Under the pieces are notes generated by a model. It made no database searches. It was given only the letters and a program-made list of their open reading frames with translations, and had not been told where the DNA came from. Positions 30,308 to 44,176 of a DNA stretch of 64,000 nucleotides are shown in pieces. The position numbers and the translations under genes were made by a program. Every line of letters begins with the position of its first letter. Position 1 is the stretch's first letter. The stretch comes from Prauserella alba (GTDB lineage Bacteria; Actinomycetota; Actinomycetes; Mycobacteriales; Pseudonocardiaceae). The stretch covers positions 484,841 through 548,840 of the forward strand of contig NZ_JAMTCH010000003.1 in the NCBI RefSeq assembly GCF_024171735.1, written 5' to 3'.

Positions 30308-30404
30308 TGACAGATCGCGGAGTCGAGGAATTCCGGTGAGAACCCGGACCGGTCGCGCCACTGTGATCGGGGCGCCGTGCGGCGGCCCCGGAGGCAGACC
30401 CTCC
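30308..30404 (+). promoter_or_regulatory. Cobalamin (B12) riboswitch
   Basis: The conserved core is recognisable: GAGGAA, then TTCCGGTGAGAACCCGGA (30331-30348) matching the GGAA-CCGGTGxGAATCCGG block, then CGCGCCACTGTGA (30354-30366) matching the cobalamin-box sequence CCGCxACTGTxA. A GC-rich arm (30368-30389) and a closing GGAGGCAGACCCTCC segment (30390-30404) follow. The short peripheral arms suggest a compact subclass. The next gene is a GntR regulator, not a B12 transporter or synthesis gene. Which ligand form binds, and whether it acts on transcription or translation, cannot be told. Confidence 0.75.
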
Positions 30405-30455
30405 CTCCGCGCCCGTCCTTGATTGGGTCGCTCGAACCCAGAGGGAGGCACCACG

Positions 30456-30485
30456 ATGATGTTCAGCCCCGGGAGCCGATCGTGA
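30456..30485 (+). CDS. Nine-codon leader ORF overlapping the regulator start
   Basis: ATG-ATG-TTC-AGC-CCC-GGG-AGC-CGA-TCG then TGA, encoding MMFSPGSRS. It has its own GAGGGAGG ribosome-binding site 7-14 bases upstream, and its stop overlaps the GTG start of the regulator (GTGA). The regulator has no good ribosome-binding site of its own at that GTG, so translational coupling through this mini-ORF is plausible. It may alternatively mark an extended regulator start in another frame, but that frame is not conserved-looking. Confidence 0.4.
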   Translation: MMFSPGSRS

Positions 30486-31216
30486 CCAGCGACGCGGCGT
30501 GGGAGCCGGTCCGTCGTGTCCGTACCCATGAACAGGTACTGACCCAGATCCAGCAGAAGATCCTCGATGGCACGCTGCGTGCAGGGGAACGCCTGCCGAG
30601 CGAGCGCGAGCTGGTGAGCATGCTCGGAGTCAGCCGGACCAGCGTGCGCGAGGCGTTGCGTGCGCTCGAAGCCATGGGGATCGTCGAATCCCGCACGGGA
30701 TCCGGGCAGGATGCGGGCTCGGTGATCACCGCGACGTCCACTCCTGCGATGACGAACCTGCTGCGGTTGCACATCGCGCTGGCCAGGATCAGCCTGTCCG
30801 ACCTGGTCGACACCCGGGTCGAACTCGAGCGCAGCGCGGCCCGTGGGGCCGCGTCCGTGCGCACCGACGACGACCTGAGACACCTCGCGGAGCTGCTGGC
30901 CCAAATGCGGTCCACCGACTCCGATCCGCACGAGTTCAACGCTCTGGACACGGAGTTCCACGTGCTCATCGCGCGGATCTCCGGTAATGCGCTGGCCGTC
31001 GATCTGATGCAGGCGCTACGAGGTGCCGTCGAACACGAGATGGCCGAGACGTTCGCGCAGCTGGGGGACTGGCGTGCTGCGGCCGACGGGCTCATCGACG
31101 AGCACGAGGCGATCTACCGCGCGATCGAGAAGGGCAGCGGTGAACTGGCCGCAAACCTGGTCGCCGACCACATCACGACCTTCTACCGGGACCGCATCGC
31201 GGGCGGCGAGGACTGA
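30482..31216 (+). CDS. FadR-type GntR regulator (FCD domain) under a B12 riboswitch
   Basis: 244 residues: winged helix with canonical recognition helix (SRTSVREALRAL, about residues 46-57) and an FCD domain with metal-site motifs DTEFHVLI, DEHEAIY and ADHITTF. It is the more typical DNA-binder of the two FadR-type proteins flanking the mutase operon. It could bind the three TGGTCNGACCA sites. Its transcript starts with a cobalamin riboswitch, so its own level probably depends on B12. A strong terminator follows at 31382. Confidence 0.87.
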   Translation: MTSDAAWEPVRRVRTHEQVLTQIQQKILDGTLRAGERLPSERELVSMLGVSRTSVREALRALEAMGIVESRTGSGQDAGSVITATSTPAMTNLLRLHIALARISLSDLVDTRVELERSAARGAASVRTDDDLRHLAELLAQMRSTDSDPHEFNALDTEFHVLIARISGNALAVDLMQALRGAVEHEMAETFAQLGDWRAAADGLIDEHEAIYRAIEKGSGELAANLVADHITTFYRDRIAGGED

Positions 31217-31436: not shown

Positions 31437-32303
31437 TCAGGCCTTGACCGGGTCGAGTACGAAGCCGTAGTCGACCGCGACCGAGCCGTCGCCGGCGGGT
31501 TTCGGGGCGAGGATCAGCTCCGGTTTCACGGCCGAGGCGATGTCGTCGTCGTTGTGCTCGTCGCCGGGGAAGTACAGCTGGGCGGTCAGCAGCTCGTGGC
31601 CCGGCGCGGAGACCTTCACGTGGAGGTGGGCAGGCCGCCAGGCGTGCCAGCCCGCGGCGGCGATCAGCCTGCCGCAGGAGCCGTCGGTCGGAATCTGGTA
31701 GGGCGCGGGCTGGATCGTGGTGATCTCGAACCGGCCGCCCTCGCCCACGGTGAACGTGCCGCGCAGGTTCCACTGCGGCTGGCTCGGCTCGAACTGGCTG
31801 TAGTAGCCGTCGTTGTCGGCGTGCCACAGTTCGACCTTGGCGTCCTCCAGCGGAGTGCCGTCGGTGGCAGTGACCGTGCCGGTCCAGGTCAGCTTCGTGC
31901 CCTGCTCGTCCGCACGCATCGGGATGGTGCCGACACCGTTCTCGGCGCACTCGGGCGCGTCCGGAACGTAGTACGGGCCCTCGATCGTGCCCTTGCTGCC
32001 CTCACGGTGGTCCGTGGCGACCTCCTCGACGACGTGCTCGACCCACACGTCGAGGAACAGCGGCCATTCGCCGTCCTCGCCGACCTGGATCAGCCACGCC
32101 TTGAGCGCGTTGTACTCGTCGTAGGTGACCTTCTCCTCGCGGATCGTGTCGTGGATGGCCGACAACACCCGCTTGGCCAGCTTGTCCACCCGCGCCGGCG
32201 GGACGTCCTTGACGGCCTCGTACGGGTTCTTGTCGCTGGTGAAGTGCGCGGTGGCGTTGGCACCGGCGGCCGCGGCGGTGGGTTCGGCGGGAACGGTGGT
32301 CAT
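31437..32303 (-). CDS. catA: Catechol 1,2-dioxygenase
   Basis: 288 residues, intradiol ring-cleavage enzyme turning catechol into cis,cis-muconate. The four Fe(III) ligands are recognisable: Tyr168 (DGYYSQF), Tyr202 (PAPYQIP), and His226 and His228 (RPAHLHVKV). An N-terminal helical dimerisation domain (about 20-100) and the IEGPYYVPDAPE linker are typical. The ATG follows AAGGAGGATCCC. It is last in the minus-strand catR-catB-catA operon, 51 bp after catB. Confidence 0.95.
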   Translation of the reverse strand: MTTVPAEPTAAAAGANATAHFTSDKNPYEAVKDVPPARVDKLAKRVLSAIHDTIREEKVTYDEYNALKAWLIQVGEDGEWPLFLDVWVEHVVEEVATDHREGSKGTIEGPYYVPDAPECAENGVGTIPMRADEQGTKLTWTGTVTATDGTPLEDAKVELWHADNDGYYSQFEPSQPQWNLRGTFTVGEGGRFEITTIQPAPYQIPTDGSCGRLIAAAGWHAWRPAHLHVKVSAPGHELLTAQLYFPGDEHNDDDIASAVKPELILAPKPAGDGSVAVDYGFVLDPVKA

Positions 32304-32354: not shown

Positions 32355-33458
32355 TCAGACGTCCTGCCGGTAGTGGGCGAGCTTGTCGGGGTCGATCTCG
32401 ACGCCGAGGCCCGTGCCGGGCCGGATGGCGAGTTCGCCGCCCGAGATCTGCAATGGTTCGGTGAGCAGGTCGTCGCTCATGTCCAGGAAGTTCGAGAGCT
32501 CACCGGCGCGCCGCGCGGTGAGTTCGAACGCCGCGCCGAACGCGACCGTGCACATCGACCCGAGCTGGCCGTCGATCTGGTTGCCCATCACGAGTTCGAG
32601 CCCCAGTCCTTCGGCCAGATGATGCGTCCGCTGCGCGAGGGTGAACCCGCTGCGGGCGACCTTGATGTTGATCGCGGTGGCCGAACCGCCCAGGATCTCG
32701 CGGGTGACATCGGCGGCGGTGACCGCCGACTCGTCGGCGATGAACGGAACATCCAACCTGGACACGAGCCAGCGCCGGCCCAGCACGTCGTCGGCGGGGG
32801 AGAGCTCCTCGGCGAACAGCAGGTCCAGGTCGGACATCTGCTGCATCGCCTTGGCCGACTCCGCCGCGGTCCACCCTCGGTTGCCGTCGACGTACAGCTC
32901 GACGCCCTCGCCGAGGTGTTCGCGCAGCGCCCGCACCACGGCGGTGTCCAGCGACACGGGACGCCTGCCGACCTTCACCTTGAACGTCGTGATGCCGTAC
33001 TCGTCCCGCATGCGTTCGGCCTCGGCCACCATGGCCGCCGGTTCGTCGAACCCGAGCATGTGCGAGACACGCATCCGGTCGGTGTACCCGCCGAGTAGTT
33101 CGCTCACCCCGACGTCGAGGCTGCGGCCGAGCGCATCCCACACGGCCATGTCGATCGCGGCCTTCGCGGCGGGATTGCCGACCGTGCGGTGCATCCGCGC
33201 ATGCATGGTCTCCCGTTCGAGCAGGCTCAGCCCCGTCAGCTGCGGCGCGAAGATCTGGTCGATCACGGCGATGATGCCGGTTTGCGTCTCCCCGTAGGTG
33301 AACGGCCGGGGCGGGGCCTCGGCGACACCGACGACGCCGTCGTCGGTGTGCACCCGCACCAGTACGTGCTCGGCCGCGTACACCTCGCCGGAGGCGAACT
33401 TCAGCGGCTTGCGGTAGGGGATGGCGAACGGGATCGCCTCGATCTGCGTGATCTTCAT
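32355..33458 (-). CDS. catB: Muconate cycloisomerase
   Basis: 367 residues, enolase superfamily, muconate-lactonising subgroup. The catalytic Lys pair is in FKVKVG, the metal ligands in YVDGNRG, FAEELS and ADESA, and the second Lys in INIKVARSG. It converts cis,cis-muconate to muconolactone. The next enzyme, CatC (muconolactone isomerase), is not found in this window. Its start overlaps the stop of the LysR gene (ATGA). Confidence 0.94.
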   Translation of the reverse strand: MKITQIEAIPFAIPYRKPLKFASGEVYAAEHVLVRVHTDDGVVGVAEAPPRPFTYGETQTGIIAVIDQIFAPQLTGLSLLERETMHARMHRTVGNPAAKAAIDMAVWDALGRSLDVGVSELLGGYTDRMRVSHMLGFDEPAAMVAEAERMRDEYGITTFKVKVGRRPVSLDTAVVRALREHLGEGVELYVDGNRGWTAAESAKAMQQMSDLDLLFAEELSPADDVLGRRWLVSRLDVPFIADESAVTAADVTREILGGSATAINIKVARSGFTLAQRTHHLAEGLGLELVMGNQIDGQLGSMCTVAFGAAFELTARRAGELSNFLDMSDDLLTEPLQISGGELAIRPGTGLGVEIDPDKLAHYRQDV

Positions 33459-34387
33459 GAACTTCCCTCGGGATTCGGGGCCTCGGTGGCAGTGGGGACG
33501 GCGCCGGGGGAGGTGAGGGCGGGTTCGAGCACCTCGACGACCGAGCGCACCAGTGCGGAATCGCTGCCCGTGTGCCAGGCGAGTGCGAGTTCGACGGCAC
33601 CGGCGTCGGTCAGGTCGCGGAACACGACGCCCTCGAGCGGCAGCGCGCGCGCCGACGTCGGCACCATGGCGATGCCGAGCCCTCCTGCGACCAGCGACAA
33701 CAGCACCGCCGTGCCGGCGGCCTGGTGCTCGCGCTGCGGCGTGAACCCCGCGGCCTCACAGCTGCGGGTCACCGCGTCGTTGACCACGGAGTCCTTGCTC
33801 GCGTACCCGATGAACCCCTCGGTCCGCAGATCGGGCGTGGCCACGACGGGTTCGTGCGCCAACCGGTGGTCGGCGGGCACGGCCAGGATCAGCGGTTCGG
33901 ACTCCACGACGCGCAGCTCGATGTCCTCGCCGCGTACCGGCGGGCGCAGAAAACCGAGGTCGAGATCGCCCGACCGGAGCAGGTCGCACTGGGCGGGCGT
34001 CAGCAGGTCGGCATTGACGTCGAGCGCGACCTCGGGCAGGTCGCGTTTGAGGGTCCTCGCGATCAGGGGCAGGTGCGAGAACGCGGCCGTGCCCGTGAAC
34101 CCCATCCGCAACAGGCCGAGCCTGCCTCCTGCGATCTGCCGCACGCCGTGCACGCTGTCGGCCAGCGTGTCGAGCACCCGCTGCGCCTCGGCGAGGAAGA
34201 ACTCGCCCGCCGGCGTCAGGCTCACCTGGCGGGTGGTGCGGGCGAACAGGGTCGCGCCCAGCTCGCCCTCCAACTGGCGGATCGCATGCGACAGCGCGGG
34301 CTGGGCCAGCCGCAACCGCTCGGCGGCACGGCCGAAGTGGCAGGTCTCGGCGACCGCGACGAAGTAGCGCAGATGACGTAGCTCCAT
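33455..34387 (-). CDS. catR: LysR-type regulator of catechol genes
   Basis: 310 residues. The N-terminal helix-turn-helix reads HLRYFVAVAETCHFGRAAERL...QPALSHAIRQLE, and the effector domain follows. The family uses muconate or benzoate as inducers (CatR/BenM group). It heads the operon catR-catB-catA and diverges from benA. A T-N11-A palindrome at 34493-34517 in the shared gap is its obvious site. The name catR is by position; CatM or BenM would be equivalent. Confidence 0.88.
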   Translation of the reverse strand: MELRHLRYFVAVAETCHFGRAAERLRLAQPALSHAIRQLEGELGATLFARTTRQVSLTPAGEFFLAEAQRVLDTLADSVHGVRQIAGGRLGLLRMGFTGTAAFSHLPLIARTLKRDLPEVALDVNADLLTPAQCDLLRSGDLDLGFLRPPVRGEDIELRVVESEPLILAVPADHRLAHEPVVATPDLRTEGFIGYASKDSVVNDAVTRSCEAAGFTPQREHQAAGTAVLLSLVAGGLGIAMVPTSARALPLEGVVFRDLTDAGAVELALAWHTGSDSALVRSVVEVLEPALTSPGAVPTATEAPNPEGSS

Positions 34388-34624: not shown

Positions 34625-35992
34625 ATGACCGAGACCCTTGACCACGTGTCGGACGTGATCGCCGACGCCGTCGTCGAAGACCCCGAAGCCGGTGTGTACC
34701 GCACCAACCGGCGGATCTTCACCGACGAGGAGACCTTCGAACTCGAGATGAAGCACATCTTCGAGAGCAACTGGATCTACCTCGCCCACGACAGTCAGCT
34801 GCCCAACCCCGGTGACTACTTCACCACCCACATCGGCCGCCAGCCCGTCGTGATCACCCGCGACAAGCAGGGCGAGCTGCACTGCCTCATCAACGCGTGC
34901 GCCCACCGCGGTGCGATGCTCTGCCGGCGCAAGACCGACAACCGCACCACGCTGACCTGCCCGTTCCACGGCTGGACGTTCCGCAACGACGGGAAGCTCC
35001 TCAAGGTCAAGGACCCGGACGGCGCCGGCTACCCCGACTCCTTCGACGCCGGCGGCTCGCACGACCTCACCAAGGTCGCCCGGTTCGACTCCTACCGCGG
35101 CTTCCTCTTCGGCAGCCTCAACCCCGACGTGCTCCCACTGGCCGAACACCTCGGCGACACCACGACGATCATCGACATGCTCGTGGACCAGTCACCGGAA
35201 GGGCTCGAAGTCCTCCGCGGCGCCTCCACCTACACCTTCGACGGCAACTGGAAGGTCCAGGCCGAGAACGGCGCCGACGGATACCACGTCACCGCCACCC
35301 ACTGGAACTACGCCGCCACCACCTCCCGCCGGAACACCGGCGAGTCGAAGAACGAGACCAAGACCCTCGACGCGGGCAGCTGGGGCAAGTCCGGCGGCGG
35401 CTACTGGTCCTTCCCCCACGGCCACCTGTGCCTGTGGACCTGGGCAGGCAACCCGCAGGACCGTCCACTGTGGCCACGCATGGACGAGCTCAAGGAGGAG
35501 TTCGGCGACGCCAAGGGCGAGTTCATGGTCAAGGGGTCCCGCAACCTCTGCCTGTATCCGAACGTCTACCTGATGGACCAGTTCTCCACCCAGATCCGCC
35601 ACTTCCGCCCCATCGCGCCGGACAAGACCGAAGTCACCATCTACTGCATCGCGCCCAAAGGTGAAAGCGACGAATCGCGTGCCTGGCGCATCCGCCAGTA
35701 CGAAGACTTCTTCAACGCCTCCGGCATGGCCACTCCTGACGACCTCGAAGAGTTCCGCTCCTGCCAACTCACGTTCCGCGCCACCGCCGCGCCCTGGAAC
35801 GACATGAGCCGCGGCGCCGAGCACTGGCTCACCGGTCCCGACGAGGTCGCCACCGCACTCGGCATGGAAGGCGTCATCTCCGCAGGCCAGCGCAACGAGG
35901 ACGAAGGGCTCTACCCCGTCCAGCACGGTTACTGGGCCGACACCATGCGCGCCGCCGTCGAGAAGGAAGCATCCGGCAAGGGCGACGCCTGA
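34625..35992 (+). CDS. benA: Benzoate 1,2-dioxygenase, large (alpha) subunit
   Basis: 455 residues, Rieske non-heme iron oxygenase. Rieske ligands are Cys92-x-His94 and Cys112-xx-His115 ([15 protein letters not shown]). The mononuclear iron site is in [12 protein letters not shown]. With BenB it makes benzoate cis-1,2-dihydrodiol. The ATG at 34625 has CAGGAGGACTCC before it. First gene of the ben operon; toluate dioxygenase (XylX) is the close alternative. Confidence 0.93.
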
Positions 35993-36033: not shown

Positions 36034-36579
36034 ATGACTGTCACCGCCGACACCGCCACCGACGGAGCAGACACCCCTCCGCGGACCAAACACATCACCC
36101 AGAACGACATCGAACAATTCCTCTACCGCGAGGCCCGCTACCTCGACGACCGCGAATTCGAGAAATGGCTCGAATGCTACGCCGACGACGTCGTCTACTG
36201 GATGCCGTGCTGGGACGACAACGGCAACCTCACGGAGAACCCTCAGCGGGAGCTGTCGCTCATCTACTACCCGAACAAGGGCGGCCTCGAAGACCGTGTC
36301 TTCCGCATCCGCACCGAACGCTCCAGCGCGACCTCCATCCCCGAGCCGCGCACCAGCCACAACATCACCAACGTGGAAGTCATCGAACGCCGCGGCGACC
36401 TCGTCGACATCCGGTTCAACTGGCACACCATGTACTTCCGGTACAACACCGTCGACCCGTACTACGGAACCTCGTTCTACACGGTCGACTTCTCCGGCGA
36501 ATCGCCACTCATCCGCCGCAAGACCGTCATTCTCAAGAATGACTACATTCACCACGTCGTCGACATCTATCACATTTGA
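36034..36579 (+). CDS. benB: Benzoate 1,2-dioxygenase, small (beta) subunit
   Basis: 181 residues, NTF2-like beta subunit: QNDIEQFLYREARYLDDREFEKWLECYADDVVYWMP is the family start, with RTSHNITNVEV and DYIHHVVDIYHI at the end. It is structural in the alpha3beta3 hexamer. ACGAGGAGG precedes the ATG. A 138-bp gap with two hairpins separates it from benC. Confidence 0.93.
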   Translation: MTVTADTATDGADTPPRTKHITQNDIEQFLYREARYLDDREFEKWLECYADDVVYWMPCWDDNGNLTENPQRELSLIYYPNKGGLEDRVFRIRTERSSATSIPEPRTSHNITNVEVIERRGDLVDIRFNWHTMYFRYNTVDPYYGTSFYTVDFSGESPLIRRKTVILKNDYIHHVVDIYHI

Positions 36580-36657: not shown

Positions 36658-36717
36658 CCGAGACCGCGTGGCGAGCGCCTGGATCGCCGCTTTCGAAGAC
36701 GTTTGCTAGGAGCTGTT

Positions 36718-39645
36718 GTGAGTCACCAAGTAGCGCTGTCCTTCGAGGACGGTGTCACCCGCTTCATCACGTGCGAGCCGGACCAGACCGTCGCCGACGC
36801 CTCGTACCGGCAGCGGATCAACATCCCGCTCGACTGCCGTGACGGCGCCTGCGGCACCTGCAAGGCGCTGTGCGAATCCGGTGACTTCGACGGCGGCACC
36901 TACATCGACGACGCCCTCACCGACGACGAAGCGGCCCGGGGCTACGTGCTGCCCTGCAGCATGACCCCCAGGTCCGATCTCGTCCTCCGCATCGCCACCA
37001 CCTCCGAGGTCGCCAAGACCCAGGCGGGCACCTTCGAGGCCACCATCACCGGCCTCGACCGGCTCTCGCCGACCACCGTCGCACTCACCATCGAAACCCC
37101 ACAGCGCGACGACCTGGCCTTCCTCCCCGGGCAGTACGTCAACATCACCGTGCCCGGCACCGACGAGACCCGCTCCTACTCGTTCAGCAACGGGCCCGAT
37201 GAGAAATCCCTGACCTTCCTCATGAAGCTCGCCCCCGGCGGCGTCATGTCCGACTACCTCACCGGCCGCGCCGGCGTCGGCGACCAGCTCACCTTCACCG
37301 GCCCGCACGGCAGCTTCTTCCTCCGCGAAACCGACCGGCCGGTGCTGCTGCTCGCAGGCGGCACCGGCCTCGCCCCGATCCTGTCGATCCTGCGCACCAT
37401 GGTGGCCACCGGATCGAGACGTCCCGTGCACCTGATCTACGGCGCCAGCACCGACGACGACGTCGTCGAACTCGGCACCATCGCCGAACTCGCCGCCCGG
37501 CTACCCCAACTCACCTGGGACTACGTCGTCTCCGACCCCGCTACCGCCGCGCCGAACAAGGGGTACGTCATGAGCCTCATCGGCGACGAACACCTCTACG
37601 ACGGCGACGTCGCCGTCTACCTGTGCGGCCCGCCGCCCATGGTCGAGGCCGTCCGCGGCCACTTCACCGAACGCGGCATCGAACCCACCGGCGTCTACTA
37701 CGAGAAGTTCGCCGTCGCCGCTGTACCTGATACCGCCGTACCCGATACCGCCGACACCGACGGCGCGGACACCGACACGACCGGCGACGACGGCATGGCG
37801 GGCCGAGTCGGGAGAGACGGCCGGGTCGGGGGAGACGGCCGCGAACCCACCGAACCGGAGGCCACCATGGACAGCGCCGTCCTCGCCCTCGAACCGGAAC
37901 CACTCCTCGAAGTCGCAGCCCTCGGCGCGGGTGAAGGCCGCCGCATCGCAGGTCAGGACACCTTTCCCGGCACCACCGCCGAACCGGTCGGAGCTCACGT
38001 CGCGGCGGCCAGGCCCGCCGCCGCCGAGGCCGACACGATGCGCGCCATCGCCCGCCAGCCCATCTGGCCCGGCGGAGAGGGCCGGCCGCTCGACCGCGAT
38101 CCCGGCGAGGAACTCCTGCCCGCCGGTGCCGCCCGCGCCGTCGCCGGCCAGGAGATGCACGCGGCCGATGAGGCGATGCGTCCTCTCTCCGCTGGGCCGG
38201 AGACCACCACCACCGCCACGACCGGGCCTCCCGCCGCGACGTCCCGCCCCGTCGCCGACGCTCCCGAGGCGTCGAACGCGTCGGCCACGACTCCGACTCC
38301 GGCCACGACTCCGGCCACGGCCACGACTCCGGCTACGACCCGGGCCGGTGCCGCCGCCTCGGAGACGGCGGACGGCTACGAGATCGGCGAGGAACACCCG
38401 TCGGTGCACGAGTCGGACGCCGTGTTCGACGCGCGGCAGGCACTCGAACTCGGGGTCGTCGAGCTCACCATCGGCAGGCTCACCTCGCAGCAACTGTCGG
38501 GATTCCGGTTGCTGGCGGAGGCAACCGTGCCCTATGTGGACGGTGACCGGTTCGTCGACGCGGCCGCGTACACCGAGACCAACGCCGCCTTCCACGACTA
38601 CCTGTTCACCCTGACCGGCAACGACCACCTGCTCCAGGCCTACCGCGCTCTCGGCGTCAAAGGCCACATGGACGAGGTGCTGCGCGACGCCACGTGGTGC
38701 GACCCCCGCTGCACGCAGGACCATCTCGACATCGTGGCGGCGTTCGAAGCAGGCGACCGGCAGACGGCGCGGGCGCTCATCGCCGAACACGGCGCACGGT
38801 CGAAAGCCACCACCCGGCGTGCCATGAAGGACGCCGAACGCGCCACACGTCCCGCGTTCGTCTCGCCCGGCCGATTCGACGGCAAGGTCGTGGTCGTCAC
38901 CGGCTCGGCCCAGGGCATCGGCGAACGCGCGGCCAGGCGGATCGGCGCGGAAGGCGGTCAGGTCGTGCTGGCCGACCGTTCCGACCTCGTCACCGGCGTC
39001 GCCGACGACGTCGTCGCGGCCGGCGGCCGGGCCCATGCGGTACTCGCCGACCTGGAGACGTTCGAGGGTGCGCAATCGGTGGTCGCCGCGGCGCTGGAGA
39101 GGTTCGGCCGCATCGACGTGCTGATCAACAACGTCGGCGGCGCGATGTGGTTCAAGCCCTACACCGAGTTCACCGCCGAGCAGATCCAGGCCGAGATCAA
39201 CCGGTCGCTCATGACGACACTGTGGTCGTGCCGGGCCGTCCTCCCGGACATGGTCCGCCAGGGCGGGGGAACGGTCGTCAACGTCTCGTCGGTCGCACGC
39301 CGCGGCATCCACCGCATCCCGTACTCGGCGGCGAAGGGCGGGATCAACGCGATCACCGAGTCGTTGGCCCTGGAGTACGCCGACGCCGGCATCCGCGTCG
39401 TCGCGACGGCGCCGGGCGGTACCGAGGCGCCGCCCCGCCGGATCCCGCGCGGCGGCGACACGCCGGCGACCGAACAGGAACAGGCCTGGTTCCAGGCGCA
39501 CATCGACCAGACCGTCGATTCCTCGCTGCTGAAGCGCTACGGCACCCTCGACGAACAGGCCGCCGTCATCGCGTTCCTCGCCTCGGACGAGGCCGCCTAC
39601 GTCACCGGCACCGTCGTGCCGGTAGCCGGGGGCGACCAGGGCTGA
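36718..39645 (+). CDS. Fusion of BenC reductase, FCD sensor domain and BenD dehydrogenase
   Basis: 975 residues in one frame. Residues 1-95 are a plant-type ferredoxin (Cys40, 45, 48, 80). About 100-335 form the FAD/NAD reductase (RSYSFSNGP; LLAGGTGLAPILSIL; VYLCGPPPMV). About 336-560 are a low-complexity linker rich in Ala, Pro and Thr. About 561-706 are an FCD domain without a DNA-binding domain (His626, His669, His691, with Asn622 where Asp is usual). 718-975 are an SDR dehydrogenase (TGSAQGIG; Ser857/858, Tyr869, Lys873) matching BenD. It would feed electrons to BenAB and oxidise the resulting diol to catechol. The GTG follows CTAGGAG. An ATG at 37867 could start a separate FCD-BenD form. 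Confidence 0.9.
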   Translation: MSHQVALSFEDGVTRFITCEPDQTVADASYRQRINIPLDCRDGACGTCKALCESGDFDGGTYIDDALTDDEAARGYVLPCSMTPRSDLVLRIATTSEVAKTQAGTFEATITGLDRLSPTTVALTIETPQRDDLAFLPGQYVNITVPGTDETRSYSFSNGPDEKSLTFLMKLAPGGVMSDYLTGRAGVGDQLTFTGPHGSFFLRETDRPVLLLAGGTGLAPILSILRTMVATGSRRPVHLIYGASTDDDVVELGTIAELAARLPQLTWDYVVSDPATAAPNKGYVMSLIGDEHLYDGDVAVYLCGPPPMVEAVRGHFTERGIEPTGVYYEKFAVAAVPDTAVPDTADTDGADTDTTGDDGMAGRVGRDGRVGGDGREPTEPEATMDSAVLALEPEPLLEVAALGAGEGRRIAGQDTFPGTTAEPVGAHVAAARPAAAEADTMRAIARQPIWPGGEGRPLDRDPGEELLPAGAARAVAGQEMHAADEAMRPLSAGPETTTTATTGPPAATSRPVADAPEASNASATTPTPATTPATATTPATTRAGAAASETADGYEIGEEHPSVHESDAVFDARQALELGVVELTIGRLTSQQLSGFRLLAEATVPYVDGDRFVDAAAYTETNAAFHDYLFTLTGNDHLLQAYRALGVKGHMDEVLRDATWCDPRCTQDHLDIVAAFEAGDRQTARALIAEHGARSKATTRRAMKDAERATRPAFVSPGRFDGKVVVVTGSAQGIGERAARRIGAEGGQVVLADRSDLVTGVADDVVAAGGRAHAVLADLETFEGAQSVVAAALERFGRIDVLINNVGGAMWFKPYTEFTAEQIQAEINRSLMTTLWSCRAVLPDMVRQGGGTVVNVSSVARRGIHRIPYSAAKGGINAITESLALEYADAGIRVVATAPGGTEAPPRRIPRGGDTPATEQEQAWFQAHIDQTVDSSLLKRYGTLDEQAAVIAFLASDEAAYVTGTVVPVAGGDQG

Positions 39646-39852
39646 GGCCCGCGGCGGTGGCCGCAGTGGCCGCCGCCGCGTGTTCATCGGGTCAGGCAGG
39701 GCGATCCCCGGCAGGACCCGCACCGGGACTCCGGTTCCACATTTCCGCGGTTCCACATCTCCGCACCCGCCACAGCGGGCCGACGCGGTCCACCGTCGCA
39801 GCACGCGGCGCACCGCGATGATCGTCATCCCCTTCTCCCCGGGAGTGCAGCA

Positions 39853-41175
39853 ATGTCCGACTCCGACGCAACGAAGCGCCGGCGCACCGTCTTCTGGGTG
39901 GTCGCCCTGTCCGCGATCTCCCTCGTCTTCGACGGCTACGACCTGGTCGTGTACGGCACCGTCCTGCCCATCCTGCTCGACGACCCCAGCCACCTCGGCG
40001 CGATCAGCCCGGAACAGGGTGGGGCGCTCGGCAGCTACGCCCTCGTCGGCGTGCTGGTCGGCGCGCTCGCCGCGGGCACGTTCGGTGACCTCATCGGCCG
40101 CCGCCGGATCATGCTGCTGAACCTGGCGTGGTTCTCGCTGGGCATGGCGTTCACCGCCATGACCACCAGCGTCATGCTGTTCGGCATCGGCCGGTTCTTC
40201 ACGGGTATCGGGGTGGGCGCCCTCGTCGGCACCGTCGGCGCGATCGTCGCCGAGTTCGCACCGACCCACCAGCGCAACCGCCTCAACGCGATCGTCTACA
40301 GCGGCATCCCCGCGGGCGGCGTGCTCGCCTCGCTGCTGGCGCTGGCGCTGACCGACGCGATCGGCTGGCGGGGCCTGTTCTGGATCGGCGCCATGCCGAT
40401 CGTCACCGTGCTGCCGCTCGCGCTGATGAAGCTGCCCGAATCGGCGCAATGGCTCGCCTCGCGAGGCAGGCACGAACAGGCGCGCGCCGTGGCCGAGCGC
40501 AACGGCATTCAGCTGGTGCCGGAGACCGGCTCCGCCGGCGGCCGCGTCGGATTCCCCGCGCTGGCCACCCGTGCGCTCGCGTGGCCGACGCTGTTGCTCG
40601 GCACCATGAGCTTCGCCGGCCTGCTGCTGACGTACGGGCTCAACACGTGGCTGCCGGAGATCATGGGGGAGAACGGCTACGGCGAGGGCTACTCGCTGGC
40701 GTTCCTGCTCGTGCTCAACGGCGGCGCGATCGCCGGTGGCCTGCTCGCCTCCGCGTGGGCGGATCGGATCGGCGCGAAACGCGTCGTCAGCACGACGTTC
40801 GTGACGGCGGCGATCACGCTGGCGTTGCTTCCGCTCGACCTGCCCCTTGCCGTGCTCATGCTCGCCGTGGCCGTGGCGGGTACCGGCACGATCGGCACCC
40901 AGGTGCTCATCTACGGCCTCGTGTCGAACTACTACCCGACGCGGGCGCGTGGCGCCGGAGTCGCGTGGTGCGCCGGATTCGGCAGGCTCGGCGGCATCGG
41001 CGGGCCGGTCATCGGTGGCCTGCTCGTCGGGGCCGGGCTCGGCGGGATGGCGGCGTTCTACATCTTCGCCGGCATCGCCCTCCTCGCGGCACTCGTGACG
41101 CTGCTGGTTCCCCGTTCCGGCCGTGAGGTCGCGCAGCCGCGCACCGTACCGGAGGGCCAGCCGGAGCCGGCCTGA
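39853..41175 (+). CDS. benK: Aromatic acid:H+ symporter (BenK-like MFS transporter)
   Basis: 440 residues and 12 predicted helices, AAHS family of the major facilitator superfamily. The family DGYD motif in helix 1 (VFDGYDLVVYG) and the GxxxDxxGRRR loop (GTFGDLIGRRRIM) are present. It most likely imports benzoate. It lies 207 bp after the benCD fusion; the gap has no strong hairpin, and GGGAGTGCAGC precedes the ATG. Confidence 0.88.
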   Translation: MSDSDATKRRRTVFWVVALSAISLVFDGYDLVVYGTVLPILLDDPSHLGAISPEQGGALGSYALVGVLVGALAAGTFGDLIGRRRIMLLNLAWFSLGMAFTAMTTSVMLFGIGRFFTGIGVGALVGTVGAIVAEFAPTHQRNRLNAIVYSGIPAGGVLASLLALALTDAIGWRGLFWIGAMPIVTVLPLALMKLPESAQWLASRGRHEQARAVAERNGIQLVPETGSAGGRVGFPALATRALAWPTLLLGTMSFAGLLLTYGLNTWLPEIMGENGYGEGYSLAFLLVLNGGAIAGGLLASAWADRIGAKRVVSTTFVTAAITLALLPLDLPLAVLMLAVAVAGTGTIGTQVLIYGLVSNYYPTRARGAGVAWCAGFGRLGGIGGPVIGGLLVGAGLGGMAAFYIFAGIALLAALVTLLVPRSGREVAQPRTVPEGQPEPA

Positions 41176-41407
41176 GAGCGCAGGGACTCGCGCGGCCGCG
41201 GCAGGGCAGGTGCGTCCTCCGCGGCCGCGCAGGACGGCGGAGGTGGAGCCGTGCCGGCCGGCGAGTTCCGTGGGCGCTGGTGTCGGTGGTGATGGCGTGG
41301 TCGGGGGACAGGTGGCACGTGACGCGGCTGCGAGGGCCGTACGGCGGCGGAGACCGGCGCCGGATCGGCGAGCCGGTACCGCGCGCTCCGGGCGATACAG
41401 TGCGAGC

Positions 41408-44176
41408 GTGAGCGACGAGGCCGCAGCCCTGACCGGTAGGGACCGCGCGCTGAGCACCCTGGAACGGGCCCTCGGCCGCGCCGCGGCGGCCGAACCCGGG
41501 TTCGCGGTCGTCACCGGTGGCGCGGGCACCGGTAAGACCGCGCTGCTCTCGGCGCTCGCCGCCCGGCACACGGGACCGGTGCATCGCAGTGCGGGCGTGT
41601 CGTGGGAGTCGGAACGCGTCTTCGGTGTCGCCGACCAGTTGGTCCGCGGCTTGGGAGACCCGTCGGGCATCCCCGGTGTGGCCGCCCGCATCGCCGCCCT
41701 CGCCGACCCCGGCGCGGACCACCCCGGTGACGCCCGGCGTACCGGATCCGCAGTCGCCGAGCCAGGCCAGGACGGCCCGCAGGCCGGGGACCCGGACGAG
41801 GCGCGTCCCGCCACGCTGCTGCTCGTCGACGACGCGCAGTGGGCCGACGAGGAATCGCTGCGCGCGCTGGTCTCGGCGGTGCGGTACCACCCGACGGCGC
41901 GACTGCTGGTCGTCGCGGCCACGCGCAGCACCGACCGCGATGTGCTGCGCCAGGCGACGACGACGGTCGTGCACCTGCCCGCACTCGGCGTCCGCGAGGT
42001 GGCCGATCTCGCCGCGGCCCGCGGTGTGGTGCTGTCACGGGCCATGGCCGAACAGCTGACCCGGCACACGTCCGGGGTTCCGGCGCACGTCGTCGACCTG
42101 CTCACCGAAGTGCCGCCGGACACGTGGCGCCGTTTCGACCCGCGGCTGCCCGCGCCCGGCGCGGTCGTCCGGCGTGTGGCCGCAGCACGGGAGCGCTGTT
42201 CCGCGCCCGCCCGCAGGCTCGTCGACGCAGCGGCGGTGCTCGGGCAGGGCGCCGCCGTCCGTGACGTCGCGATGTTGGCGGGGCTGGGCGACGGTCCCGG
42301 TGGGCTGCTCGACGTCGCCGACGAGGCGTGCGCCAGTGGGCTCGTCCGTACCGGACCGCGCGGGCTCACCGAGCTCGGGCCCACCGATCCGATGGTGCGC
42401 GCGGCAGTGCTGGACACACTCGGCCATGCCGCGGCCGCCGACCTGTGCACGCGGGCCGCGGAGCTCGTCGACGACCCGGTTCAACAGGCGCGACTGCTCG
42501 TCGCAGCCACCCCGGTGCCCGATGCGGCACTGGCCGACCGGCTCGACACGCTGGCCGCCGACCACGCCGAGGAGGGCGCGTGGGGCGTCGCCGCGTCACT
42601 GCTGAGCGACGCGGGCAGGCTCACCGAGGACAGGCTCGTCCGCGAACGCCGCATGACCCGGGCCGTCGACGCGCTGATCGGGGCGGGCGACGCCCTCGGT
42701 GCGGGCGCGCTGGTCCCCGAGGTCGAGGGACTGCGCGAGACGCCGCTGCGCAACGCCGTGCTGGGTTACCTCGCCGTCGTGCGGGGCAGACCGGCCGAAG
42801 CGCAGGCACGGCTCGACCGGGCGTGGCGGCTCGTCAACCCCGACCGAGACTCGGGCGTCGCGGCGGTGATCGCCCAGCGGTACGTGCTGCACTGCCTGTG
42901 CCGGTGCCGTGCCGAAGACCTCGTCACCTGGGCCGACCGGGCGATGGCGCTGGCGGGGGAGCACGATCCGACCACGGTCGAGGCTGCGGCCATTCGCGGC
43001 CTCGGCCTCGCGGGCACCGGCCGGGGCGACGAGGCGGCCGCGGCCTACTCCGAGCTGGCCGATCGGGTTCCCTCGGGTGCGCAGTGGCAGCGCATCGTCA
43101 TGGGACGCGGCTGGCTGGGGCTCGGCCGCGACGCGCTCGACGATGCCCGGACCGACCTCGAACTCGGCGTTCCGACCACCGTGCTGGGCGGGTCGACCCG
43201 CGTGTCCCTGTGGGCGCGGGGGTGGCTGGCGCGGACCCAGTTCCTCACCGGCGAGTGGGACGAGGCGCTGCGCACGGTGCACGCCGCGCAGGACGTGCTC
43301 GACCGCAGCGGTATCGCCGTGACAGGGCCGCTGCTGCACTGGTCGGCGGTCGCCGTGCACGCGCTGCGCGGCGAGTGGGACGCGGTGGCGGCGACGATGC
43401 ACCGTGTCGACGCCGGGCCGCGCGACTACGAGATCATGCAGCTGCCCTCGTGCCTCGCGCACGCACTGGTGGCGGAGGTGAAGGCCGACGCCGCAGGAGT
43501 GTTGCGGGCGTTGCGGCCGTTGACGAAACGGTGGGCGCACAGTTCGGTCGACGACGAACCGGGCCGCTGGCCGTGGGCCGACATGTACGCGCACGCGCTG
43601 GTCGCCGAGGGCCGTGTCGACGAGGCCGACACGTTCCTGCTCCCGCACGAACAGCGAGCGACCGAACGAGGCCCCGCATCGGCGCGTGCCCGGCTGCGGG
43701 CGGCCCGCGGGCGGATCGCCGCCGGCCGCGGCGACCTCGGCGAGGCGCGCACCGCGTTCGGCGATGCCCTCGACCTGCTCGAAGGGCTGCCCCTGCGTTA
43801 CGACCGCGCCCGCACCGAGTTCATCCACGGCCAGGTGCTGCGGCGGGCGGGCAAGCGCAAGGAGGCCGACGACGCGTTCACGGCTGCCCGCGAGGTGTTC
43901 GCGGCGCTCGGCGCGGTGACCTACGTCGAGCGCTGTGACCGCGAGACCAAGGCGGGTGGCGTGCGCGCGCCGCGCAGCGAGCGGGACCCCGGTGAGCTGA
44001 CCCCGCAGGAGCAGGCCGTCTCCCGGCTCGTCGCGCAGGGCATGACGAACCGGGAGGTGGCCGCCGAGCTGTACCTGTCGACCAAGACCGTGCAGTTCCA
44101 CCTCACGCGCGTCTACGGCAAACTCGGTGTCCGCTCCCGGTCGGAACTGGCCGCCCGGCTCGGCGGCGCGGACTGA
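41408..44176 (+). CDS. benR: Large LuxR-type (LAL) ATPase regulator, candidate BenR
   Basis: 922 residues. The N-terminal AAA domain has Walker A GGAGTGKTAL (about residues 37-46) and Walker B LLLVDDAQWAD. A helical-repeat middle part follows, and a C-terminal LuxR helix-turn-helix (LTPQEQAVSRLVAQGMTNREVAAELYLSTKTVQ). ATP-binding LuxR-type regulators activate ben genes in Corynebacterium and Rhodococcus, which with the position supports BenR. The GTG at 41408 is chosen because the preceding 95 open codons are arginine-rich. It is separated from benK by 232 bp without a recognised feature. Confidence 0.8.
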   Translation: MSDEAAALTGRDRALSTLERALGRAAAAEPGFAVVTGGAGTGKTALLSALAARHTGPVHRSAGVSWESERVFGVADQLVRGLGDPSGIPGVAARIAALADPGADHPGDARRTGSAVAEPGQDGPQAGDPDEARPATLLLVDDAQWADEESLRALVSAVRYHPTARLLVVAATRSTDRDVLRQATTTVVHLPALGVREVADLAAARGVVLSRAMAEQLTRHTSGVPAHVVDLLTEVPPDTWRRFDPRLPAPGAVVRRVAAARERCSAPARRLVDAAAVLGQGAAVRDVAMLAGLGDGPGGLLDVADEACASGLVRTGPRGLTELGPTDPMVRAAVLDTLGHAAAADLCTRAAELVDDPVQQARLLVAATPVPDAALADRLDTLAADHAEEGAWGVAASLLSDAGRLTEDRLVRERRMTRAVDALIGAGDALGAGALVPEVEGLRETPLRNAVLGYLAVVRGRPAEAQARLDRAWRLVNPDRDSGVAAVIAQRYVLHCLCRCRAEDLVTWADRAMALAGEHDPTTVEAAAIRGLGLAGTGRGDEAAAAYSELADRVPSGAQWQRIVMGRGWLGLGRDALDDARTDLELGVPTTVLGGSTRVSLWARGWLARTQFLTGEWDEALRTVHAAQDVLDRSGIAVTGPLLHWSAVAVHALRGEWDAVAATMHRVDAGPRDYEIMQLPSCLAHALVAEVKADAAGVLRALRPLTKRWAHSSVDDEPGRWPWADMYAHALVAEGRVDEADTFLLPHEQRATERGPASARARLRAARGRIAAGRGDLGEARTAFGDALDLLEGLPLRYDRARTEFIHGQVLRRAGKRKEADDAFTAAREVFAALGAVTYVERCDRETKAGGVRAPRSERDPGELTPQEQAVSRLVAQGMTNREVAAELYLSTKTVQFHLTRVYGKLGVRSRSELAARLGGAD

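Follow-up and report, generated by a model that had tools for sequence, protein, structure and literature searches.

A BenC–FCD–BenD fusion protein with linker repeats in actinobacterial benzoate clusters

A fusion of benC and benD with an FCD domain has been reported in Gordonia alkanivorans YC-RL2, within a ben operon that, like the one studied here, includes regulators of the LysR and LuxR types (PMC6362181). The part of that paper available to us gives the fusion for one strain and as annotation only, with no mention of repeats, distribution, losses or FCD site residues. In Rhodococcus, the available part of a second source labels the benC product 'FCD domain-containing protein' and shows benD as a separate gene, an arrangement that by annotation would fit BenC-FCD plus BenD (PMC11858498). 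The benC-benD-FCD fusion has therefore already been reported, and ours is not the first sighting, because the Gordonia paper states it for one strain; an initial reading of our locus from its letters, hereafter the sequence-only reading, had known of no described fusion of this kind and was mistaken on that point. Among open-licence papers on FCD and the benzoate ben enzymes we found none on function or on the repeats, and the search on linkers and docking was noisy.

The roles of the metal histidines, the arginine and the glutamate of FCD domains are known from the GntR/FadR regulators TM0439, CitO and HypR (PMC6608401). As far as the available part of that source allows the comparison, the fused FCD resembles these domains in family, three histidines, pocket arginine and first glutamate, matched by spacing, but it has no DNA-binding domain, sits inside an enzyme and carries Asn and Asp swaps in the second shell. 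The same two enzymes are also encoded by adjacent but separate genes, with no FCD match, in proteobacteria (loci L069–L071, L075 and L076) and in some actinobacteria (L096, L145, L146 and L148).

The fusion gene and its distribution

The window is a stretch of 64,000 nucleotides from Prauserella alba that carries a ben-cat cluster (Table 1). catA, a catB-like gene and a LysR-type regulator gene lie on the minus strand; benA, benB, the fusion gene and the genes for an MFS transporter and a LuxR-type regulator lie on the plus strand. The transporter comes after the fusion in several relatives too, and the LuxR-type regulator adjoins ben in 90/99 loci. A GntR regulator with an FCD of its own adjoins catA (30377–31216, plus strand); its ligand may also be a pathway acid. 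A minus-strand frame of 1649 aa at 37501–42450 crosses the fusion and its neighbours and is probably a shadow of the high G+C coding sequence.

Table 1. Features of the ben-cat cluster and of the fusion gene, in window coordinates
Feature	Position	Strand	Basis or remark
catA, catechol 1,2-dioxygenase	31437..32303	-	TIGR02438, 462.9 bits, cut-off 404.4
catB-like muconate cycloisomerase	32355..33458	-	TIGR02534, 195.8 bits, below cut-off 334.95
LysR-type regulator, cat/ben boundary	33455..34387	-	LysR-family models, all below cut-offs
benA, benzoate dioxygenase large subunit	34625..35992	+	TIGR03229, 802.9 bits, cut-off 780.95
benB, benzoate dioxygenase small subunit	36034..36579	+	TIGR03232, 275.1 bits, cut-off 225.55
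Likely ribosome-binding site AGGAG	36708..36712	+	sequence; GTG 5 bases downstream
BenC-linker-FCD-BenD fusion gene, 975 aa	36718..39645	+	GTG start, stop included
BenC reductase part, residues 3–332	36724..37713	+	NF040810; Fer2, FAD_binding_6, NAD_binding_1 (2Fe-2S, FAD, NAD domains)
Variable linker, residues 334–552, ~220 residues	37717..38373	+	pairwise identity, length variation, low pLDDT
Repeat-bearing linker stretch	37930..38196	+	A3 profile, own-genome match E 1.2e-27
Linker repeat 1, RRIAGQDTFP, residues 408–417	37939..37968	+	motif search
Linker repeat 2, RAIARQPIWP, residues 442–451	38041..38070	+	G -> R in this genome
Linker repeat 3, RAVAGQEMHA, residues 473–482	38134..38163	+	motif search
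Conserved FCD segment, residues 553–705 (Pfam match 569–691)	38374..38832	+	PF07729; H626, H669, H691, R573, E577 kept
BenD diol dehydrogenase part, residues 719–975	38872..39642	+	NF040811
MFS transporter, benK-like	39853..41175	+	TIGR00895, 243 bits, below cut-off 418.55
Large LuxR-type regulator, start uncertain	41408..44176	+	name based on similarity; NCBIfam gave nothing at 1e-30

BenC, FCD and BenD are parts of one protein, as the sequence-only reading had proposed, and each scores above its curated cut-off in the single frame (476.3 bits against 430 for BenC and 415 against 380 for BenD, both with equivalog profiles, and 58 against 24.3 for FCD). A six-frame search of the organism's own genome returned the same FCD, stop-free, at G000:C1:523262-523630. 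The best 80 related loci were listed, and in all 65 with an FCD match the three parts share one stop-free frame, with 74–201 residues between the BenC match and the FCD query. Because 65/65 FCD-bearing listed loci share the joined frame, the fusion is no assembly error; a sequencing error merging two genes, which the sequence-only reading had named as grounds for withdrawing its proposal, is ruled out. Among the other listed loci, five, all from Halomonadaceae, carry the genes apart and give no FCD match, and 10 have only a distant dehydrogenase. The alignment used below (A1) comprises the window and 64 loci, 65 rows in all; L056, in which the BenC start could not be extrapolated, was omitted from it and from the linker counts. 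A second alignment (A2) holds 47 of these rows, and 47/47 scanned members match PF07729 at E<=0.001. Both enzymes retain their catalytic residues throughout A1: the 2Fe-2S cysteines C40, C45, C48 and C80 of BenC are present in 65/65 rows, as are S857, S858, Y869 and K873 (Ser-Tyr-Lys) of BenD. The 2Fe-2S region itself is badly predicted in the model of the window protein (pLDDT 31–57, residues 31–100).

The 65 FCD-bearing loci among those listed come from 14 named genera: Prauserella, Amycolatopsis, Saccharopolyspora, Nocardioides, Geodermatophilus, Pseudonocardia, Knoellia, Rhodococcus, Rhodococcoides, Modestobacter, Gordonia, Williamsia, Antrihabitans and Blastococcus. Sampled evenly, the order had BenC in 46/397 genomes, and the full fusion accounted for 37/46, our own included; the other genomes had BenC-repeats-BenD without FCD (2), BenC-FCD with a separate BenD (2), separate BenC and BenD (3), or a separate BenC ending in one repeat (2). 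Across the phylum sample, the FCD-BenD query matched 4/396 genomes at E<=1e-60, three of them full-length, again including our own. Among 72,556 plasmid records, 101 matched the BenD part at E<=1e-60 and one, from Tsukamurella, covered most of the query; its gene is named benC in the record. L154 (G967) encodes a BenC-like reductase that scores 378 bits, below the BenC cut-off, and adjoins a distant BenA relative (29% identity); it is another oxygenase system. The bacterial microcompartment shell protein PF00936 gave 0 matches in the genome of the window, with positive controls in E. coli and Synechococcus, which rules out the fusion as microcompartment cargo.

The FCD domain

Of BenC, FCD and BenD, conservation is highest in the FCD, with a mean pairwise identity of 81% against 74% for BenC and 74% for BenD. 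H626, H669, H691, R573 and E577 are invariant (65/65 rows of A1), so that the three metal histidines and the ligand arginine, matched to the reference domains by spacing, are present in every row; the sequence-only reading was right to call the histidines kept. It was also right about the loss of the DNA-binding part, as the Pfam scan of the fusion (E<=0.001) gave no winged helix-turn-helix of GntR/FadR type. The model of the window protein predicts seven helices at 562–710, with pLDDT 73–97 over 571–700, in keeping with the six or seven helices of an all-helical FCD. Among the 50 matches listed by Foldseek for the full model there were only BenC and dehydrogenase chains, and this search is therefore uninformative on FCD. 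No relative of known structure was found for the FCD with a single sequence, and the best profile match, 7xp0, was not significant (E 0.37).

The surroundings of the site have changed. N622 and D668 stand at positions equivalent to those where the available part of the regulator study places Asp and Glu in TM0439 and HypR, and residue 692, beside the last histidine, is G or A instead of the leucine that directly follows the last metal histidine in CitO and HypR (PMC6608401). The fused domain additionally conserves H560 (65/65), H564 (63/65), C661 (60/65) and C665 (65/65), encoded at 38395–38409 (H560–H564) and 38698–38712 (C661–C665) of the window. A second metal site formed by these four residues is possible; L101 and L097, with BenC-FCD alone, have no cysteines matching C661 and C665. 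In 21 relatives we found no regulator FCD close to the fused one (best 30 bits, against 305–310 for fused FCDs), which rules out a recent capture of the domain from a neighbouring regulator.

Judged from the alignment, retention of the metal residues and of the arginine tips the balance towards ligand binding by the FCD, which may be a sensor or a dimerisation module. FCD domains dimerise in GntR regulators, and the domain could be a mere spacer or dimerisation module, its histidines kept for folding, in a fusion that gains by stoichiometry alone. The existence of FCD-free BenC-repeats-BenD proteins (L111 and L117, and L098 with a broken frame) and of FCD-free split BenC plus BenD agrees with this explanation; a spacer, however, would need less than invariant histidines, R573 and E577 in 65/65 rows of the most conserved domain of the three, and we regard it as unlikely, though to be taken seriously. 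We prefer ligand binding: the FCD has lost the DNA-binding half, but because its buried metal site and pocket arginine are kept it most likely binds an aromatic acid of the pathway.

Repeats in the linker

The linker between BenC and FCD contains short repeats that follow the motif R-x-[IVL]-A-G-Q-x-h-[FWL]-P. They were missed by the sequence-only reading. Linkers are 70–221 residues long (65 linkers) and have a mean pairwise identity of 33%, against 74–81% in the domains of A1; in the window model the linker has a pLDDT mostly <60 and is probably disordered. Even so, the strict core [ILVMC][ACFT]GQ occurs 136 times in the 65 linkers, against a mean of 1.5 and a maximum of 6 in 200 shuffles, and 62/65 linkers contain at least one copy. 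A relaxed form of the motif, counted without a chance control, is found in 79/79 linkers. Some lineages have altered copies, such as those in L142 and L144, in several of which I replaces A. The repeats were not found in the tails of the separate-gene BenC proteins of L096, L099 and L102.

A repeat profile (A3), for which 16 of 53 listed segments of the linker were used, gave no second match at E<=0.001 in the genome of the window among the best 150 of 197 candidates, with one weak match at E 0.065. In the class, 8/345 genomes matched among the best 15 candidates per genome, and 8/8 of these matches adjoin BenC. Matches to the profile are thus confined to the ben locus in both searches, which rules out the repeats as a general module.

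We compared repeat divergence with that of the neighbouring proteins in 62 of 79 linkers, near-copies having been removed. Repeat divergence follows BenAB when BenD is taken into account (partial correlation 0.29, p 0.001) and BenC when BenAB is taken into account (0.17, p 0.01); BenD given BenAB is likewise positive (0.11, p 0.005), and the comparison with FCD was not significant (0.09, p 0.10). These partial correlations point weakly to co-change of the repeats with BenAB and BenC. Positions fixed in loci with repeats and changed in repeat-free actinobacterial loci (6 of 7 used, one near-copy omitted) number 18/303 in BenA, 10/118 in BenB and 8/154 in BenC, and 1/119 in BenD, 1/187 in catB and 0/165 in luxR. 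The excess in BenA and BenB is not specific, because L142 and L144, which have retained altered repeats, behave alike, with 31/281 in BenA and 6/118 in BenB against 1/120 in BenD.

Instead of binding BenAB, the repeats might bind one another and so drive higher-order assembly or a condensate of the fusion. Self-binding would suit the multivalency of the copies and a linker that is modelled with low confidence and probably disordered. In the AF2 model of the window protein every one of the three repeats is predicted to carry a short pair of strands (409–414, 443–448 and 474–479), and the repeats are paired with one another at low confidence. The confidence of these strands is about 31–57, however, and the L019 model places the second repeat in a helix, so the pairing is not reproduced; split BenC, moreover, keeps a single copy. 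Self-binding therefore seems to us rather improbable, and we favour docking to a partner. A partner common to all forms is likely, with BenAB the best candidate, because the repeats sit on the BenC tail and outlast the FCD.

Variant architectures and a proposed scaffold

Three loci (L097, L147 and L149) encode BenC-FCD in one frame, with a short repeat-free linker and BenD separate; their FCDs are 45–59% identical to that of the window. L111 and L117 have no FCD and three repeat copies, in a frame open through to BenD, and L117 retains a scrap resembling the FCD end. In L141 and L143 the genes are split and the BenC tail keeps one repeat copy. L098, from the genus of the window, is without FCD, has two repeat copies and a broken BenC frame; its BenC match spans three frames (L098 5312–6308), by mutation or assembly error. 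FCD is thus dispensable in several lineages.

A BenA+BenB tree, which covers 75 of 99 loci plus the window after omission of L056, L154 and near-copies, clusters L097, L147 and L149 with three loci having separate BenC and BenD, with support 99. Changes in the repeat label, in BenD joining and in FCD number 1, 2 and 7 on this tree, 1, 2 and 6 on the BenC tree, and 2, 3 and 6 on the BenD tree; the 'agq' repeat label was assigned by architecture, and some loci so labelled have altered copies only. The direction of these changes is taken from parsimony, as the trees alone do not tell gain from loss. They suggest that FCD was joined to BenC first, that BenD fusion and repeats came later, and that FCD losses followed. 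FCD seems to have been a partner of BenC at first because three loci show BenC-FCD with a separate BenD, and its later loss is suggested in no fewer than three lineages whose frames are intact, all of which retained repeats.

Could the fusion be a neutral joining of adjacent genes, without gain, in which FCD and repeats are left-overs? benC and benD are adjacent anyway and FCD changes 6–7 times on the trees, as neutrality would allow; yet BenD joining shows only 2–3 changes and the repeats 1–2 on three trees, and the conservation of the repeats and of the FCD residues is not shared by the surrounding linker, which makes neutral joining very unlikely in our estimation. That FCD-BenD is additionally produced alone, from a linker-internal start or by proteolysis, is extremely improbable: in the scanned stretch, a start codon of any kind together with a ribosome-binding-like motif occurs in 15/65 genes, but only 1/65 combines ATG with such a motif, the positions are not conserved and the window has no start codon there, so the scan of 65 genes speaks against separate translation.

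BenC passes electrons from NADH to the oxygenase BenAB, which converts benzoate to a cis-diol acid; BenD turns the diol into catechol and returns NADH. As an alpha-hydroxy acid, the benzoate diol is the kind of ligand that suits a metal-carboxylate pocket. Based on the variants and conservation described above, our preferred reading, held tentatively but as a real prospect, is that the fusion is a pathway scaffold with docking repeats and a metal-dependent FCD pocket for an aromatic pathway acid. Against it count the dispensability of FCD in several lineages, the altered second shell of the metal site and the missing leucine, the unspecific excess of changes in BenA and BenB, the weak partial correlations and the disagreement of the two AF2 models over the repeats. 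A single chain would hold together the NADH maker (BenD), the NADH user (BenC) and the consumer of the diol. The repeats would serve as short elements for docking or assembly on the tail of BenC, most likely for the oxygenase BenAB, and the FCD may bind a pathway aromatic acid and either retain this ligand or tune the enzyme. Diol or benzoate is our first guess for the ligand, because the diol suits such a pocket. In a bolder version, the repeats are a new kind of multivalent element that clamps BenAB to a chain bearing its reductase and the next enzyme, and the FCD, a former transcription-factor sensor that no longer binds DNA, uses its metal site to capture or sense the diol acid. The protein would then be a benzoate metabolon found in nature, with a transplanted regulator domain tuning its flux; we think this version improbable.

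If the scaffold reading is true, the ligand domain of a transcription factor would have been re-used within an enzyme, and a short repeat would organise a ring-hydroxylating oxygenase pathway that serves aromatics and lignin-derived acids. Natural forms that carry FCD alone, repeats alone, the two together or none of them are a ready comparison for the function of each part.
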